DNA from: an uncultured Bacteroidales bacterium
GTDB taxonomy: Bacteria; Bacteroidota; Bacteroidia; Bacteroidales; UBA932
Assembly (NCBI GenBank): GCA_905234475.1
Contig: CAJOHX010000004.1
Coordinates: 1-64,000, forward strand
Reading direction: 5' to 3'
Length of the DNA stretch: 64,000 bases
Within the stretch, counting starts at the first letter, position 1, and each line of letters starts with the position of its first letter. Positions 23,861 to 62,826 of the stretch are shown here, piece after piece. The notes under the pieces were generated by a model. It worked only from the letters and a program-made list of their open reading frames with translations. It had not been told where the DNA came from and searched no databases. Both the position numbers and the translations under genes were made by a program.

Positions 23861-24748
23861 GTGCTGCTCGCTGATTTCATCCGCAGCGGGACTGCCCGCC
23901 TGGAGAGCCTTTACCCTTCGCCTGAGGCGAGGGGTTTGGTTTTGATGCTCTGCCGCGAGCGGCTCGGGGTGACGAATTATACGCACATCGTCGAGCCGGA
24001 GTCGGCCGTGCCGCCGGAGCGCGAGGCGGACCTGGAGGCGGACCTGCGGCGCCTTTGCGCCGGGGAGCCGATCCAGTATGTGCTGGGGGTTGCGGAGTTC
24101 TGCGGGCACCGTTTCGCCGTGGGGCCGGGTGTGCTCGTCCCGCGGCCGGAGACGGAGCTGCTGGTCGCCGAGACCGTCCGCGCGCTGCGCGAGATGCCGC
24201 TCGACCGGGGGCCGCGGGTGCTTGATCTGTGCACCGGTTCCGGGTGCATCGCCTGGTCCGTCGCCCTCGAAATCCGCGACGCGCAGGTCATTGGCGTTGA
24301 CCTGTCTGAAGATGCCCTGCGCTATGCGCGCAACCAATTCCCGTCATCCGCCGGCTCTTCTTCGTCATTCGCCGGCTTGACCGGCGAATCTCCCACCTTC
24401 CTGCAGGCCGACATCCTCGACACGGAGCAGGCCTTCCCCTATGGCCCCTTCGATGCGGTCGTCAGCAATCCCCCGTACGTGATGGAGCGCGAGCGGGCGC
24501 TGATGCGCCCCAACGTGCTCGACTGGGAGCCCGCCAGCGCGCTGTTTGTCCCCGACGACGATCCGCTGCTTTTCTACCGGGCGGTCGCCCGCTGGGCGCA
24601 GCGTTTTCTGCGGCCCGGTGGCGTCGGCCTCGTCGAAATCAACGAGGCGCTCGGCCCCGAAACCGCCGCCGTCTTCCGCGCCGCCGGATTCAAAAACGTA
24701 CAAATCCTCCCGGATTTCGCCCACAAAAACCGCTTTATCCGATTCTAA
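23861..24748 (+). CDS. prmC: peptide chain release factor N5-glutamine methyltransferase
   Basis: VLDLCTGSGCIAWSVA; VVSNPPYV; GTG start; contains in-frame palindromic repeat. Confidence 0.9.
   Translation: MLLADFIRSGTARLESLYPSPEARGLVLMLCRERLGVTNYTHIVEPESAVPPEREADLEADLRRLCAGEPIQYVLGVAEFCGHRFAVGPGVLVPRPETELLVAETVRALREMPLDRGPRVLDLCTGSGCIAWSVALEIRDAQVIGVDLSEDALRYARNQFPSSAGSSSSFAGLTGESPTFLQADILDTEQAFPYGPFDAVVSNPPYVMERERALMRPNVLDWEPASALFVPDDDPLLFYRAVARWAQRFLRPGGVGLVEINEALGPETAAVFRAAGFKNVQILPDFAHKNRFIRF
24341..24392. repeat. palindromic element inside prmC (partial plus full copy)
   Basis: ccgtcatccgccggc then cgtcattcgccggcttgaccggcgaatctccc. Confidence 0.8.
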
Positions 24749-26777: not shown

Positions 26778-28533
26778 CGGTCATTTCACAGGCGGCGCAG
26801 TCGAAGTGGAGGGCGAGGCGGCGGCCGTTGTTGAGAAGGAACAGCTCCTGCGGAGGCTTTGCGCCCTGGTACTTCGGGCACAGGCCCAGTTCGTAGCGGA
26901 CGCAGTACTTGCTGCGCATCAGGGGAGATCCTTCGACAGGCTCAGGATGACATGAGGCGGGAGATTCGCCGGTCACGCCGGCGAATGACGGTTGGAGGCG
27001 TGCAGCACGCTGTCTGCTGACGCCGACATTATCCAAATCTTCGGCAACGAGGCGGCGGATGCCGTTGATTGTAGAAGCGCTAAGCAGCGGCAGGCGGCCG
27101 CCGGGGGTGGCGATTTCGAGCTCGTCGAGCGAGAAATGGTAGACCCCGGCGCGCTTGGAGAGCTGCTCACGCAGCATCGCCTCGGCCCGTTCGCGGTTCT
27201 CCGCCGTCTCTACGTCCGTGTGGAACGGGCTGAGCACCTCGCGGCCGTCCTGACTGCGCGCCGTGACCTCCAGCACATAGTCGCCGTGCACCCGCACGGA
27301 CAGGCTTACCGGGACCTCCCGGCGGCAGACGCGCGTCTCCAGCTCTTTTTCGAAAGCCGTATTGATATTGCGGTAAAGCGTCATCCCCTCGCGCAGGTCG
27401 GGAACATCCTTGCAGCGGACCTGCAGGCCCTCGCAGACGTCGCCCCGGAAACCGGTCACGCCGTCCGCAGTGGCGATGGCGAAGCCGTCGCCGTTGTGCA
27501 GCTCGAGCCCGCCGCGGAGCGGCTTGACGCGGAACTGCATGCCCCGGCCGGGCTCGCGCCGCACGGCCTGGACCGTCCCGACGGCCTCCCCCATCGACTT
27601 GGGGGCGTCCATCGAGGACCAGCGGCCGCGCTTGCCGTCCAGAAACAGCTCCGTGTAGCCGCGGTTGAAGGTTTTGGCGGTGTCCGGGGTGAACCCGCCC
27701 GTCACCACCCCGAAGGAAGCGCGGCGGTAGCGGTCGGGATATTTCGCGACCAGCGCGTCCAGCGCCAGGGAATAGTCCCGGACCACATTGCGGACATAGG
27801 AGGCATTCTTGAGCCGCCCCTCGATCTTGAAGGAGCACACGCCGGCGTCGGCGAGCTCCTCCAGGCGGGCCTTCAGGTTGAAGTCCTTGAGCGACAGGAC
27901 GGCCTTGTTGCGCAGCAGCACGCGGCCGTCGCCGTCCACCAGGTCGTAGAGCGAGCGGCAGGCCTGAATGCATTCGCCGCGGTCGGCGCTCCGCCCGTCG
28001 ATATACTCCGACAGGCGGCACTCGCCGCTATAGCACACGCAGAGCGCCCCGTGCACGAAGAATTCCACCTCGCAGGGCACGGCGGCGCAGATCTGGCGGA
28101 TCTGCTCCAACGAGAGCTCTCGCTCCAGGATGATGCGCTCGCAGCCCAGCGAAGCGAAATAGCGGGCCCGCTCCACGTCCCGGATGGCGCACTGCGTGGA
28201 AGCGTGCAGGGGCACGGTGATATCGTCCCAGGCCGCGATCCGCGGCTCCCGGATGATGAAGGCGTCCGCCCCCGCCTCCTGCGCACGCAGCATCTGCGCG
28301 TGGGCTTCCGCCTCTTCGCCTTCGCGCCAGAGGGTATTGTAGGTCACGAAAATGCGCACGCCGAAGCGGTGCGCATAGGTGCAGAGTTCCGCAATGTCCT
28401 CGAAGCTGTTGCCCGCCGCCTTGCGGGCCCCGAAAGCGGGCCCGGCGATATATACGGCATCGGCACCGCAGTCAATGGCTGCGATGCCGATATCCTTGTT
28501 TCTGGCGGGAGCCAGCAGCTCAAGGCTTTGCAT
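26761..28533 (-). CDS. peptidase U32 family protein
   Basis: LLAPARNKDIGIAAIDCGADAVYIAGPAFGAR; FVHGALCVCYSGEC; C-terminal KYCVRYELGLCPK; contains two in-frame repeats. Confidence 0.93.
   Translation of the reverse strand: MQSLELLAPARNKDIGIAAIDCGADAVYIAGPAFGARKAAGNSFEDIAELCTYAHRFGVRIFVTYNTLWREGEEAEAHAQMLRAQEAGADAFIIREPRIAAWDDITVPLHASTQCAIRDVERARYFASLGCERIILERELSLEQIRQICAAVPCEVEFFVHGALCVCYSGECRLSEYIDGRSADRGECIQACRSLYDLVDGDGRVLLRNKAVLSLKDFNLKARLEELADAGVCSFKIEGRLKNASYVRNVVRDYSLALDALVAKYPDRYRRASFGVVTGGFTPDTAKTFNRGYTELFLDGKRGRWSSMDAPKSMGEAVGTVQAVRREPGRGMQFRVKPLRGGLELHNGDGFAIATADGVTGFRGDVCEGLQVRCKDVPDLREGMTLYRNINTAFEKELETRVCRREVPVSLSVRVHGDYVLEVTARSQDGREVLSPFHTDVETAENRERAEAMLREQLSKRAGVYHFSLDELEIATPGGRLPLLSASTINGIRRLVAEDLDNVGVSRQRAARLQPSFAGVTGESPASCHPEPVEGSPLMRSKYCVRYELGLCPKYQGAKPPQELFLLNNGRRLALHFDCAACEMTVTQTA
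26924..26951. repeat. palindromic element, variant B, inside U32 peptidase gene
   Basis: ggagatccttcgacaggctcaggatgac. Confidence 0.75.
26960..26991. repeat. palindromic element, variant A, inside U32 peptidase gene
   Basis: ggagattcgccggtcacgccggcgaatgacgg. Confidence 0.8.
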
Positions 28534-57883: not shown

Positions 57884-57961
57884 TGGTGAGGCTTAGCAGA
57901 TTTGAACTGCTGACCTCTTGCCTGTCAAGCAAGCGCTCTGAACCAGCTGAGCTAAAGCCTC
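57884..57961 (-). tRNA. tRNA-Val(GAC), CCA encoded
   Basis: GAGGCTTTAGCTCAGCTGG...CTTGC TTGACAG GCAAG...GGTCAGCAGTTCAAATCTGCTAAGCCTCACCA. Confidence 0.9.
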
Positions 57962-58005: not shown

Positions 58006-58035
58006 AGATTCGCCGATCGAGTCGGCGAATGACGA
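58006..58035. repeat. palindromic element downstream of DUF4230 operon
   Basis: agattcgccgatcgagtcggcgaatgacga. Confidence 0.75.
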
Positions 58036-58042
58036 CGATGGG

Positions 58043-58708
58043 CTAGCGGCCGGCGGAGCCGCCGGGGCGGAGCGGGAGCTGTTTGCTGAGGATGATGTCG
58101 ACCTCGCGGTAGCCCAGGGAGGTGAAGAGGCGCTGAAGGCTGGCGACGCCGGAGGCCTCGGCCTGGTCCAGGACACCGGCCTGGACGGCGTCGGCGCGCA
58201 ACCGCTGCTTAGCCTGGAGGATGATGCCGACCGTCTCCTCATGCGTGCGGTGGCCGGAGAAGTGCTCGTAGTCCGTCGGGTTGATGATCACGTCCAGGAC
58301 CTCCACCGGCGGGAGCGTGACCCGCAGGGTGTCGCCCGAGACGGAGAAATCCGACGGCTTCATCTTGGTCAGGTCGAAGCCGGCGCGCACACGCCCCTTG
58401 CAGATGATCACGAAATCGCCGCTGCCGGTAAAGCGGCGGATGCCGTCGACGCGCCGCAACTCTCCCAGGTAAGAATTGTCCCGGTCCGTGAGGACCAGCT
58501 CCTCGTAAAAGCCGGCGCTGGACAGCTCGCCGATGCGGCGTACCTGCTCCACGACCGTGGCCGTCTTGTCGATCTGCAGGCCGCGGGACGAGCGGGTCCG
58601 GCCGGGCCAAATTACCCAGATCACCCCTGCCGCCAGACACAGGAGGAAGACCAGCAGCAGCACAAGGCGCCGCAGGCGGGATTCTCTGGGTTGACGGGGC
58701 TTGCTCAT
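58043..58708 (-). CDS. DUF4230-like membrane-anchored protein (second copy)
   Basis: N-terminal TM; VRRIGELSSAGFYEELVLTDR...FVIICKGRVRAGFDLTKMKPSDFSVSGDTLRVTLPPVEVLDVIINPTDYE; 4-bp overlap with upstream gene. Confidence 0.75.
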   Translation of the reverse strand: MSKPRQPRESRLRRLVLLLVFLLCLAAGVIWVIWPGRTRSSRGLQIDKTATVVEQVRRIGELSSAGFYEELVLTDRDNSYLGELRRVDGIRRFTGSGDFVIICKGRVRAGFDLTKMKPSDFSVSGDTLRVTLPPVEVLDVIINPTDYEHFSGHRTHEETVGIILQAKQRLRADAVQAGVLDQAEASGVASLQRLFTSLGYREVDIILSKQLPLRPGGSAGR

Positions 58709-59304
58709 TCGAAGACGATCTGGATGTTCTCAAAACCCATCTGCTCCAGCATGGAGCGGAAAAACTCCTCCGCGTTGGCCTCGGCCTCGTCGAGGATGCC
58801 CAGTGTGGGCAGGTCGCGGACGATGTCGCGCTCGCCCTGCCGGAGCAGGGCCTGGCGCTCCCGGTCACTGAATTTCTGGCGGAAGCCGGTCACGTCCTCG
58901 TACTCGAGCCGGATCTCCTCCGGGGGGATGTTGATGGTGAGCACCGTCGCGTGCGGCAGCACCATGGCGACGGAGCGCGACTCCTCGTCCACCACGATCC
59001 TGTCCAGCGGGATGCGGTCGAGGTGGATGCCTGCCTTGAGGTAGGCGGTGCAGGTGAACAGGATGCGGCGGTTGCCGATCTTGAACCATTCCCCTTCGTC
59101 GCGGGCGCGGACGGCCTTGCGGACGGTGTATTCCACCGTGCCGAGCTCGGAGGTCTGGCTCAGCGCCTGGATGCGGCTGGCGAGCAGGTCCTGCAGCGAG
59201 GGGCCGCGGGAACATGCTGCCAGCAGGGCGACTGCCACGAGGAGGGAGATTCGCCGGTCAAGCCGGCGAATGACGGATCGGGGTGCGGACCGGAAACGGG
59301 ACAT
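58705..59304 (-). CDS. DUF4230-like lipoprotein
   Basis: lipobox VALLAACSRG; TVEYTVRKAVRARDEGEWFKIGNRRILFTCTAYLKAGIHLDRI; palindromic repeat within signal-peptide region. Confidence 0.75.
   Translation of the reverse strand: MSRFRSAPRSVIRRLDRRISLLVAVALLAACSRGPSLQDLLASRIQALSQTSELGTVEYTVRKAVRARDEGEWFKIGNRRILFTCTAYLKAGIHLDRIPLDRIVVDEESRSVAMVLPHATVLTINIPPEEIRLEYEDVTGFRQKFSDRERQALLRQGERDIVRDLPTLGILDEAEANAEEFFRSMLEQMGFENIQIVFE
59245..59276. repeat. palindromic element inside signal-peptide region of DUF4230 lipoprotein
   Basis: ggagattcgccggtcaagccggcgaatgacgg. Confidence 0.8.
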
Positions 59305-59305
59305 G

Positions 59306-60292
59306 CTACTGCGCGGCTTCGGCGGGGACTTCCGCGGGTTGTTCTTTCTCGCCGTTGATCCACGCGTCCAGCTTCTGCCCCATCAGGGACAGGCCGGAGA
59401 TGGTGGTGTCCCGGGACAGGACCAGGAAGGACTTGACCGCGTCCAGCATGGCGCGGCGGCGCACCTTGGCCCCAGACTTGCCGGACAGGGCCTGCGCGCC
59501 TTCGCGCAGGTACGCCAGCGTCACGTGGCCGATGCGCAGCGACAGCAGGGTGTTGGCCGTGCCGTCCACCAGCGACTTGGTCACCGTGCCCACCAGGGGC
59601 ATGTTGGAGAGGGCCTTGAGCTGCAGCATCTCCGGATCCACCTCCACCTTGTCGAGGGCGTCGGAAAGGTAGTAGCTGAAGAGCGAAGTCGCAAGGATCC
59701 GGGCGTACTGCCTGCCGAGCTGGCCCCAGGTGGGACGGTAGCCCGAGCAGCGGATCACGTCTGCGATCATCCGGCAGTTGATCACCAGCGAGGTGATGGC
59801 GTCGATGCGCCCGACCTGCGAGACCGTGGTCACGAGGAAAACGGTCTTCGCCCACTGGTGGATGTGCTCCTGCGCCTTCGCGAAACGGCGGTCCAGCTCG
59901 CCCTGGATGATGCCCCGCAGCTCCGCCAGGTCATAGAAACGGTCCAGCTGCGCGAGCAGTTCGCTGCGCCGCGCGGCGGCTTCCTCCGCCGGCAGGTCGC
60001 CGAGGTTGTCGGCCAGCGAGCGGGCAAAGGACTTCAGCTCCCTGCGCAGCTCGGGCGTGTCCTCCGCGGCGGGGTCCACCGACAGCTTCGGGAAGGGCTT
60101 CGCAAACAGGATGCGGCAGGTCGGGATGACGACCAGCCACACCAGCGCCCCGGCCAGCAGGCCGTAGAAAACCCACGCGAGCACGGGCGAAGCCGCGGCG
60201 AGCTTGTCGCCGATCACGATGACATTGCCGGCCAGCAGGATGACGGTGACCAGCGCCAGGCTGACGCCCAGGGTGACCAGCGTGCGTTTCAT
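59306..60292 (-). CDS. DUF697/YcjF-like membrane protein
   Basis: two N-terminal TMs; GTVTKSLVDGTANTLLSLRIGHVTLAYLREG; 4-bp overlap with GTPase gene. Confidence 0.7.
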   Translation of the reverse strand: MKRTLVTLGVSLALVTVILLAGNVIVIGDKLAAASPVLAWVFYGLLAGALVWLVVIPTCRILFAKPFPKLSVDPAAEDTPELRRELKSFARSLADNLGDLPAEEAAARRSELLAQLDRFYDLAELRGIIQGELDRRFAKAQEHIHQWAKTVFLVTTVSQVGRIDAITSLVINCRMIADVIRCSGYRPTWGQLGRQYARILATSLFSYYLSDALDKVEVDPEMLQLKALSNMPLVGTVTKSLVDGTANTLLSLRIGHVTLAYLREGAQALSGKSGAKVRRRAMLDAVKSFLVLSRDTTISGLSLMGQKLDAWINGEKEQPAEVPAEAAQ

Positions 60293-62055
60293 ATAATGAT
60301 GTCTTTAAGCTGACGCAGCAGGGATTCGAGCGTGTCCAGCAACGCGTCCTCTTCCGGATGCGTCATCTGCTGCAGCCGCTCGGTGAACTGGCCGCGGATC
60401 TGGCCGAGGTAGCCGGCCTGGATGCGGTCGATCTCCGCCGTGAGCAGGCGCTTGAGGTTCTGGATCGTATGTCCCTCGGCGTCGCCGTAGAAATAATGCT
60501 CCATGTTGGCGATGCTCTCGCGGACCGTGTCGGCCTTGAGCGGGAAGATCGACGGGCGCATGAAGCGCTTCACCTTGTCTTCCGGGATGTTCTGCTCGCT
60601 CTCCGCGCGGACGGTTTCCAGCGCGGCAAGCGGCTCCAGGGGCACGCCGAGGCGGGCGTTCACCGCCTCGAAACTGTCGCGCTGCCGGTCGCCGAACAGG
60701 CGGTACAGGCGACCTGTCAGCTTCTCGTCCACGTCGTAGAGGAACGACGCGAGGATCTCCTTGAGCAGCGCGAGGCACTCCTTGCCGGACATCGACTTGT
60801 TGACCATGCTCTTGGCGAGGGTCTTGAAAAGGGACCGGTCGGCGTCTTCGGAGATATTGGCCACGATGGTGTCGTAGTCGGTCTGCGAGAGGCCCAGGGC
60901 CTTGTCCAGGCCGTCCAGGTGCTCCTGCAGGGCCTGGCGGTCGCGGCGCCGGGCGTCGAGCTCCTGCGTCCGCTCCCAGATCTTCTTCACGAGGTCGTCG
61001 CGGAGCTTGTCGGTCCGCTCCAGGCAGCGCTCCAGGCGCTGCTCGCCGACCTGGGAAGTGATCTTGCCGACCAGGCGCTCCTCCACCTCCTCGAAGGCAT
61101 GATACTCCCGCTCCAGCTCCGCCTCACAGCCCGGCCGGGCATTGCCCTTGAGGTGGTCCGTGACCATGCCGAGGTTGAGGCAGCTGACGTAGTCGGGCTC
61201 GATGTTGAAGCCCTTGCGCTTGATCTCCTCGTACTCGCTCTTGCTCTGACGCTCCACCTCCGCGCGACGCTGCTCGTCATTCTGCCACCAGGAAGCGTCG
61301 AAGATATTGTGGATCAAGTACACCGGCACGGAGCCGTTGTATTCGCGGAGCTTGTCGAGATACTCGTTGGAAGTCACGTTGAAGGCCGACACCGAGCTGT
61401 GGACGAACAGGATCAGGTCCACGCGCCGGGACATGGCGTCATACAGGGCGCCGGAGAGGTTGATCCGGTTGCCGTCGAAGCCCGGCATGTCCGCCAGGAA
61501 AATCTTGCCGGCGTCGGTCCCGGTGAGCATCTTGCTGCCGGGGGTGGTGATGGCCGTGATGATGGAGTTGTCCTGCCGGCTGTACGACGGGGCGATGTAG
61601 TTCTCGATGTTCTCGTCGCTGAGCGGATAGGCCTCGCGGGTGAGGTGCTCGCGCAGCTCCGAGTCGTCCTCGATGATGCCGCGCAGCTTGTCGATAATCA
61701 GGTCCAGGTCCTTCTCCTTGCGGGATTCGTCCTTGGAGGAATAGATCTCAATCGCCGGTTCGGCACCCGCCTCCACGCTCGAGATGATGGTCGGACGCAG
61801 GGTGCATTCGAGCTTGTCGGTGGGGCTGACGTAGCGATGCGCCAGCAGGTTGACGAGGGTGGATTTGCCCGACTTGACGGGCCCCACCACCAGCATGATG
61901 AACGAGCCGTGGCGGTACTCCTGCGCGCGGCGGGCAAGCCGCTGCAGGCCGGCGGCGATCTCTTCGTCGCCGCCCAGCCGCGGCACGTATTCCGCGCTCA
62001 GGGCTTCCAGGAGCGCGGATACCGCATCAAGCTTCTTCTCGTTGCCGGCTGCCAT
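60289..62055 (-). CDS. dynamin-family/P-loop GTPase
   Basis: VVGPVKSGKSTLVNLLAHRYVSP (G1), IFLADMPGFDG (G3), long helical C-terminal half. Confidence 0.85.
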   Translation of the reverse strand: MAAGNEKKLDAVSALLEALSAEYVPRLGGDEEIAAGLQRLARRAQEYRHGSFIMLVVGPVKSGKSTLVNLLAHRYVSPTDKLECTLRPTIISSVEAGAEPAIEIYSSKDESRKEKDLDLIIDKLRGIIEDDSELREHLTREAYPLSDENIENYIAPSYSRQDNSIITAITTPGSKMLTGTDAGKIFLADMPGFDGNRINLSGALYDAMSRRVDLILFVHSSVSAFNVTSNEYLDKLREYNGSVPVYLIHNIFDASWWQNDEQRRAEVERQSKSEYEEIKRKGFNIEPDYVSCLNLGMVTDHLKGNARPGCEAELEREYHAFEEVEERLVGKITSQVGEQRLERCLERTDKLRDDLVKKIWERTQELDARRRDRQALQEHLDGLDKALGLSQTDYDTIVANISEDADRSLFKTLAKSMVNKSMSGKECLALLKEILASFLYDVDEKLTGRLYRLFGDRQRDSFEAVNARLGVPLEPLAALETVRAESEQNIPEDKVKRFMRPSIFPLKADTVRESIANMEHYFYGDAEGHTIQNLKRLLTAEIDRIQAGYLGQIRGQFTERLQQMTHPEEDALLDTLESLLRQLKDIII

Positions 62056-62060
62056 GGGGT

Positions 62061-62804
62061 TTAGTCCTTGTCGGACCAATAGGTGATCTTGCGATACTCG
62101 CGGTTCACGTAGGTGTCAGTCTCGACCTCGGGCTCGCTGTCATCCCAGGGCTCCTCCCAGCTGTCCGTGGTCGTGGTGACCAGGCGGACCGTCCAGTTGC
62201 CCTTGTCGTCGAACTCCTGGTAGTCGTACTCGATGGTGCAGGACTCGTTGTAGCCTTCGTTGTAGCTCTCGAAGGTGATCCGGCTCGGATAGAACTTGTC
62301 GCCCTCGTACTCGTACTTATAGTCGGCGCCCCATTCCCAGCCGGTATACTCTTCGGTGGCTACGCGATCCTTCGCGTCATAGGTATACTTATAATGGCTC
62401 TCGTTAAACACATCCAGGTCGTCGTCAAGGAAGTTGCCCTCCTCGTCGAGAACCGAGCAGTCGTAAGAGACGAGCCTGCCCTTCGCATCACGGGTGATCG
62501 TCGACCACTGGCTGGTGCCGGCGATGAAATTGCCCTCGGTGTCGTAGATGTAGAGGTTGCCATACTCATCCTGGATCACGCGGCCCTCCCGGTCGAAGGA
62601 CATCAGGAGTTCGTCCTGCTCGAGCCAGGGGTCGCCCTGCTCATCCTCCGAGGAGGTCTCCAGGAGCAGCACGGAGTAGAAAACGTTCTTCACGTCGCCG
62701 GTCATTCCGAAGGTGTGCACGTCTGCGGAGGTCTTCTGGGCGCCCTTCTCGCAGGACACGAGGGCGAAGACCGCCATCAGCACAAAAACTGCAATCTTTT
62801 TCAT
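62061..62804 (-). CDS. hypothetical lipoprotein with YD/RHS-like repeats
   Basis: MKKIAVFVLMAVFALVSCEKG lipobox; DEYGNLYIYDTEGN...YDAKDRVATEEY. Confidence 0.75.
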   Translation of the reverse strand: MKKIAVFVLMAVFALVSCEKGAQKTSADVHTFGMTGDVKNVFYSVLLLETSSEDEQGDPWLEQDELLMSFDREGRVIQDEYGNLYIYDTEGNFIAGTSQWSTITRDAKGRLVSYDCSVLDEEGNFLDDDLDVFNESHYKYTYDAKDRVATEEYTGWEWGADYKYEYEGDKFYPSRITFESYNEGYNESCTIEYDYQEFDDKGNWTVRLVTTTTDSWEEPWDDSEPEVETDTYVNREYRKITYWSDKD

Positions 62805-62826
62805 ATTCATTTTGGTTATATCAAGG

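Follow-up and report, generated by a model that had tools for sequence, protein, structure and literature searches.

In Proteobacteria, the GTP-binding protein YcjX (DUF463) is encoded beside YcjF, a membrane protein of the DUF697 family, and YcjX is reportedly Ras-like, according to work by Tsai in 2019. Both ycjX and ycjF rise together with the PSP genes on infection with phiX174 (PMC8125068). For most bacterial dynamin-like proteins (DLPs), the partner is another DLP (PMC6104087), and DynA of B. subtilis has been reported to delay phage lysis or to reseal the membrane (PMC8844932). The DUF4230 protein SMU_1803c of S. mutans is encoded by a single gene, the deletion of which caused no significant biofilm defect (PMC13041782). 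Here we analysed a 64,000-nucleotide stretch of DNA from a gut bacterium (the window), in which a dynamin-like GTPase, a DUF697 protein and two DUF4230 proteins are encoded side by side.

The window contains five open reading frames in one operon-like cluster on the minus strand, and all five were present when checked. In order of transcription, they encode LP, a predicted lipoprotein of 249 amino acids with an LVSC lipobox (62061..62810); a dynamin-like GTPase of 588 amino acids with an ATG start (60289..62055); a DUF697 protein of 328 amino acids with two N-terminal transmembrane (TM)-like helices at residues 9-27 and 38-56 (59306..60292); DUF4230a, a predicted periplasmic lipoprotein of 199 amino acids with an LAAC lipobox (58705..59304); and DUF4230b, 221 amino acids long, with one N-terminal TM segment (residues 15-33) after a basic N terminus and a domain that is predicted to be periplasmic (58043..58708). 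These are the families named in the original prediction, and the assignments hold, for LP by its lipobox and for the other four by Pfam matches above the curated cut-offs. The start of LP was moved to 62810, as the previously given 62804 is its second Met.

The ORF coordinates bear out the predicted spacing, with gaps of 5 bp or less (5 bp between LP and GTPase, 1 bp between DUF697 and DUF4230a) or ATGA overlaps (GTPase/DUF697 at 60292-60289 and DUF4230a/DUF4230b at 58708-58705). The anticipated promoter-like motif of the Bacteroidales type, TTG-N20-TATCTTTG, lies on the minus strand upstream of LP (62857-62827); it is a consensus match only. The pattern TTG-N19-21-TANNTTTG is enriched in the window, with 5 occurrences versus 0.55 in shuffles, and a matching motif precedes LP in two related loci (L079 and L081). 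After DUF4230b, we found a predicted terminator-like stem-loop with a T run, formed by a REP-like palindrome (58030-58008, minus strand), in a region where the number of such stems is at chance level. The gene for tRNA-Val(GAC) (57884..57961, minus strand) lies outside the operon and is its constant downstream flank.

LP is a locus-specific gene and not a constant part of the operon. The LP of the window had no confident family match, and among its homologues only that in L138 matches a family, RHS_repeat. LP is fast evolving, with a dN/dS of 0.31. In related loci, it is found between an aminotransferase gene and either GTPase or DUF4230a, and in L070 and L074 it was not found in the interval from the aminotransferase gene to GTPase. 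In L086, which is also listed as L073, another gene lies between LP and GTPase and the promoter-like motif directly precedes GTPase, so transcription of the four remaining genes probably does not require LP.

The GTPase matched PF00350 (Dynamin_N) with an E value of 3.9e-14 and 53.5 bits against a curated cut-off of 27, and a profile search of the PDB with the GTPase matched mitofusin and BDLP. We built an AlphaFold (AF2) model from 47 sequences (pLDDT 84), the top Foldseek matches of which were IniA, BDLP, SynDLP, Cj-DLP (the Campylobacter DLP pair) and Fzo1, at E values of 1e-12 to 1e-8. Identity in these matches was about 15% and whole-chain TM-scores were low, as expected because these are hinged proteins. 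In the model and its matches, a helical neck or trunk is predicted to follow the G domain of a large GTPase. By profile and predicted fold, this is a true dynamin-superfamily protein; the dynamin fold itself is a prediction from sequence. Residues 469-511, between two long predicted helices, are variable in sequence and may form a membrane-binding tip.

Of the nucleotide-binding motifs, G1 (GPVKSGKST) is invariant in 47/47 homologues, G2 is ECT, and G3 reads DMPG[FL]D in all 47 (DMPGFD in the window), which agrees with the clear G1 and G3 that had been predicted. A canonical G4, (T/N)KxD, was not found in the GTPase, in which G1, G2 and G3 are intact. The HNIFD previously picked out at the G4-like site is present and belongs to a conserved type, HN[IV]xD, that is, NxxD with the usual Lys replaced; as HN is invariant in 47/47 homologues, this odd G4 is a signature of the family, and a homologue from Treponema has HNIMD. 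It is a motif variant only and no bar to membership of the Pfam family. By analogy with its family, the GTPase would bind or remodel membranes. No TM-like segment was found in it by sequence prediction.

The neighbouring protein matched PF05128 (DUF697) with an E value of 3.8e-9 and 36.9 bits against a cut-off of 27.7. Its match to TIGR01620 (YcjF) was partial, at 2.5e-6 and 27.4 bits, far below the cut-off of 160. Our comparison covered about 1,200 genomes overall. Scanning one genome per species yielded 49 GTPase loci in Bacteroidales that span Prevotella, Bacteroidaceae, Paludibacteraceae, B. faecis, Odoribacter and others. Wherever the contig extends beyond the GTPase gene, a DUF697 gene lies directly 3' of it (48/48 relatives), and no second DLP gene was found beside the GTPase in these loci. 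The trees of the two proteins agree, with a distance correlation of r 0.88 (none of 2000 permutations was as high) and 19/26 splits in common, which fits co-inheritance and is no proof of contact. The spirochete Treponema saccharophilum also has an annotated copy of the pair, again with an ATGA overlap, on its plasmid pTS2, where the GTPase matches at 28% over the G domain and the DUF697 protein with an hhalign probability of 95. The view of DUF697 as a companion of GTPases was thus well founded, and on comparative evidence GTPase-DUF697 is one fixed unit, constant across Bacteroidales and present in a spirochete. From its TM-like segments and constant adjacency, DUF697 most likely anchors the TM-less GTPase at the inner membrane. 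The GTPase family is found in 15/400 genomes of the window's genus and in 5/324 genomes of the order, one of them marginal. Within the genus, a divergent version of the pair (30-33% identity) is followed by a phosphomannose-isomerase-like gene and not by DUF4230.

Both DUF4230 proteins matched PF14014, DUF4230a at 3.1e-26 (92.7 bits) and DUF4230b at 1.6e-23 (83.9 bits), against a cut-off of 27. The domain is present in 50/400 genomes of the window's genus, all 50 with at least two copies, and in nearly all loci examined gene b follows gene a in a same-strand tandem. Rare rearranged exceptions occur, for example in L164. An N-terminal TM segment was predicted for DUF4230b in 54/54 pairs and a strict lipobox for DUF4230a in 37/54, and the asymmetry of a lipoprotein and a TM protein is therefore a feature of the pair; both are predicted to be membrane- or lipid-anchored, in line with the membrane components that had been proposed. 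In a Prevotella genus, DUF4230 was found in 48/55 genomes, nearly always in two copies, and the a-b pair in 12/12 fetched loci. Judged by this conservation, DUF4230a-b is a second fixed unit, common without the GTPase, and the two proteins probably form a heterodimer.

We also modelled DUF4230a (pLDDT 83). Its top matches were the TULIP-type proteins BPIFA1/SPLUNC1, at E 0.02 and with low probability and TM-score, and the model had no significant match to any known fold; a TULIP-like lipid-binding fold is a lead at most. Neighbours of stand-alone pairs are mostly varied genes. In Prevotella, a sodium:alanine symporter gene follows the pair in 7/12 loci, and the neighbourhoods of stand-alone pairs gave no functional lead beyond this symporter. 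An open-access literature search, which left most subscription papers outside its reach, found neither the GTPase-DUF697 nor the DUF4230a-b unit described and nothing on DUF697 together with dynamin; DUF4230 is mentioned in three papers, one of them on the SMU_1803c deletion. The DUF4230 pair is thus a constant, undescribed combination of a lipoprotein and a TM protein, shared by the majority of genomes sampled from a Prevotella genus, and the uncharacterised DUF4230 domain gains a likely native partner. Each of the two pairs is a defined target of two proteins for purification and deletion.

How are the two units linked? An orthologous GTPase (77-89% identity) is found in 11/400 genomes of the window's genus, and the tight order GTPase-DUF697-DUF4230a-DUF4230b is present in 10/10 clade GTPase loci with enough contig; the eleventh contig ends inside DUF697 and was left out. 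Across the 49 GTPase loci, the window's clade was the only one in which a clean profile detected DUF4230 close to the GTPase; at the loci outside the genus, no DUF4230 is linked. The conserved co-occurrence on which the original prediction relied fails outside one clade of one genus. Apparent DUF4230a matches in L087, L091, L093 and others came from a profile built on over-extended reading frames and were gone with the clean profile. At the level of whole genomes, DUF4230 was found in 21/30 GTPase genomes outside the genus versus 31/324 in the order. This association in trans vanished against the Prevotella background (48/55), and for that reason the co-occurrence outside the genus is most simply taxonomic.

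Within the clade, the site of the locus is fixed: most loci have the aminotransferase gene upstream, and 12/13 related loci have tRNA-Val(GAC) downstream, the thirteenth contig ending too early. Three of these loci (L138, L140 and L145) read aminotransferase-LP-DUF4230a-DUF4230b, the GTPase-DUF697 pair being missing, and their genomes contain no GTPase match anywhere (completeness 95% for G741 and G619 and 88% for G569). Their DUF4230 proteins nest inside the GTPase-bearing clade, with node supports of 0.80-1.0. The absence of GTPase-DUF697 is most simply explained by two losses, as a unit; the phylogeny could also reflect exchange and not loss at these three loci. All four core genes are under purifying selection (dN/dS 0.10-0.39), as are the DUF4230 genes in comparisons that involve the GTPase-less loci (0.19-0.28). 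The four genes stand together in tight order in 10/13 clade loci, which could point to a functional tie between the units.

We consider it reasonably probable that the five-gene operon is a composite of two separately conserved units whose linkage arose a single time, within one clade, probably to allow co-expression. We favour this interpretation because each pair is fixed alone and the linkage is limited to one clade. Drawing on family knowledge (bacterial DLPs, DynA and ycjX/ycjF) and on gene anatomy, we propose that the two-TM DUF697 protein would keep the cytosolic dynamin-like GTPase at the inner membrane, and that GTP-driven dimerisation or assembly of the GTPase would tether, seal or remodel this membrane under envelope stress. 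DUF4230a and DUF4230b would present homologous periplasmic domains, one lipid-anchored and one on an inner-membrane helix. This pair would have an envelope role of its own for which the GTPase is not needed, and would be co-expressed with GTPase-DUF697.

The GTPase-DUF697 pair could, compatibly with such a composite, act in defence, as an accessory anti-phage or membrane-damage unit that delays lysis or reseals the membrane in the manner of B. subtilis DynA. The DynA precedent, the patchy spread of the GTPase family, the apparent loss of the pair as a unit and its plasmid copy in Treponema are all consistent with this. However, a PADLOC search returned no confident defence family: LeoBC, PDC-M15A and PglZ matched weakly, at E 8.7e-5 or worse, and the LeoBC match (8.7e-5) was limited to the GTP-binding region. 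In addition, the clade locus, fixed before tRNA-Val, looks vertically inherited, and no phage-encoded copies were found. The phage-defence suggestion made earlier thus lacks a family match good enough to back it, and we treat defence as an unlikely alternative and not as the main reading.

The operon had also been proposed to encode one conserved inner-to-outer-membrane GTPase machine, in which movement generated by GTPase and DUF697 would be transmitted across the inner membrane to DUF4230b, then to DUF4230a and finally to outer-membrane lipoproteins. The ATGA overlaps and the order conserved in all ten complete clade loci argue for such a machine, the predicted topology could in principle span cytosol, inner membrane and periplasm, and the DUF4230 pair of the window's clade forms its own branch in the tree. 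Yet neither unit depends on the other for its conservation: outside the genus, DUF4230 is unlinked at GTPase loci, many genomes have the DUF4230 pair and no GTPase, and the three GTPase-less loci retain LP-DUF4230a-b under purifying selection. An obligate machine is not supported by this comparison, and a single trans-envelope machine appears doubtful. It is quite improbable that, in the window's clade, the DUF697-anchored GTPase drives the bi-anchored periplasmic DUF4230 pair as a trans-envelope device; if true, such a device could serve, for example, lipid movement or a link between the two membranes under stress, and we are aware of no case in which a cytosolic dynamin is coupled to a pair in the periplasm. 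Integration at the tRNA is not favoured, as the genes are placed 5' of tRNA-Val and there is no sign of an element.

As a composite of two units, the operon resembles several known systems in part. The GTPase shares the Dynamin_N domain with IniA, BDLP, SynDLP, Cj-DLP1/2, DynA and LeoA, and its predicted G domain and long helical bundle are those of bacterial DLPs, with significant Foldseek matches to IniA, BDLP, SynDLP and Cj-DLP. It differs in its DUF697 partner, where most bacterial DLPs have a second DLP, in a G4 of the form HNxxD and in having no TM segment. Eleos/LeoABC has a dynamin-like GTPase in common with the operon, and there is the weak LeoBC profile match, whereas the operon is without a second DLP and without a confident defence-family match. 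SMU_1803c has the same PF14014 domain and is membrane-associated; here, the domain occurs in a pair of a lipoprotein and a TM protein. YcjX-YcjF is alike in that a GTPase gene lies next to that of a DUF697 membrane protein, and differs in that YcjX is reportedly Ras-like and the GTPase here dynamin-like. The GTPase-DUF697 pair would thereby extend the YcjX-YcjF theme, a GTPase with a DUF697 protein, to dynamins.

With up to three mismatches allowed, the window contains four copies of a REP-like palindrome of 27 bases, GTCATTCGCCGGCTTGACCGGCGAATC (59248-59274, 58007-58033, 24364-24390 and 26963-26989), and none would be expected from shuffled sequence. One exact copy lies within the part of the DUF4230a gene that codes for the signal peptide (59248-59274), at the residues SVIRRLDRRIS. 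The terminator-like stem that we observed 3' of DUF4230b is another copy of this palindrome (58007-58033). The signal peptides of some homologues contain a VIPGLTG stretch, which may represent another REP-like element.

We also recorded the neighbours of both gene pairs in related loci (L-numbers) of other genomes. In Prevotella, a sodium:alanine symporter gene was found 3' of the DUF4230 pair in 7 of 12 loci (L169, L170, L173, L174 and L176-L178). Some genomes of the window's genus carry two adjacent DUF4230 pairs (L132, L136, L137, L151 and L164), which are oriented toward each other in L137 and L164. These double pairs are adjoined by a protein of 976-983 amino acids that, judged by eye from its sequence, resembles a response-regulator/PEP-synthase type.

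The window's genus also has a divergent GTPase-DUF697 pair, with a phosphomannose-isomerase-like gene immediately 3' of it (L036, L076 and L077; also L106, L117 and L121). Outside the window's phylum, overlapping genes for a dynamin-like GTPase and a DUF697 protein are present on plasmid pTS2 of Treponema saccharophilum (L179:3860-6747), and are followed there by an HNH endonuclease-like gene.
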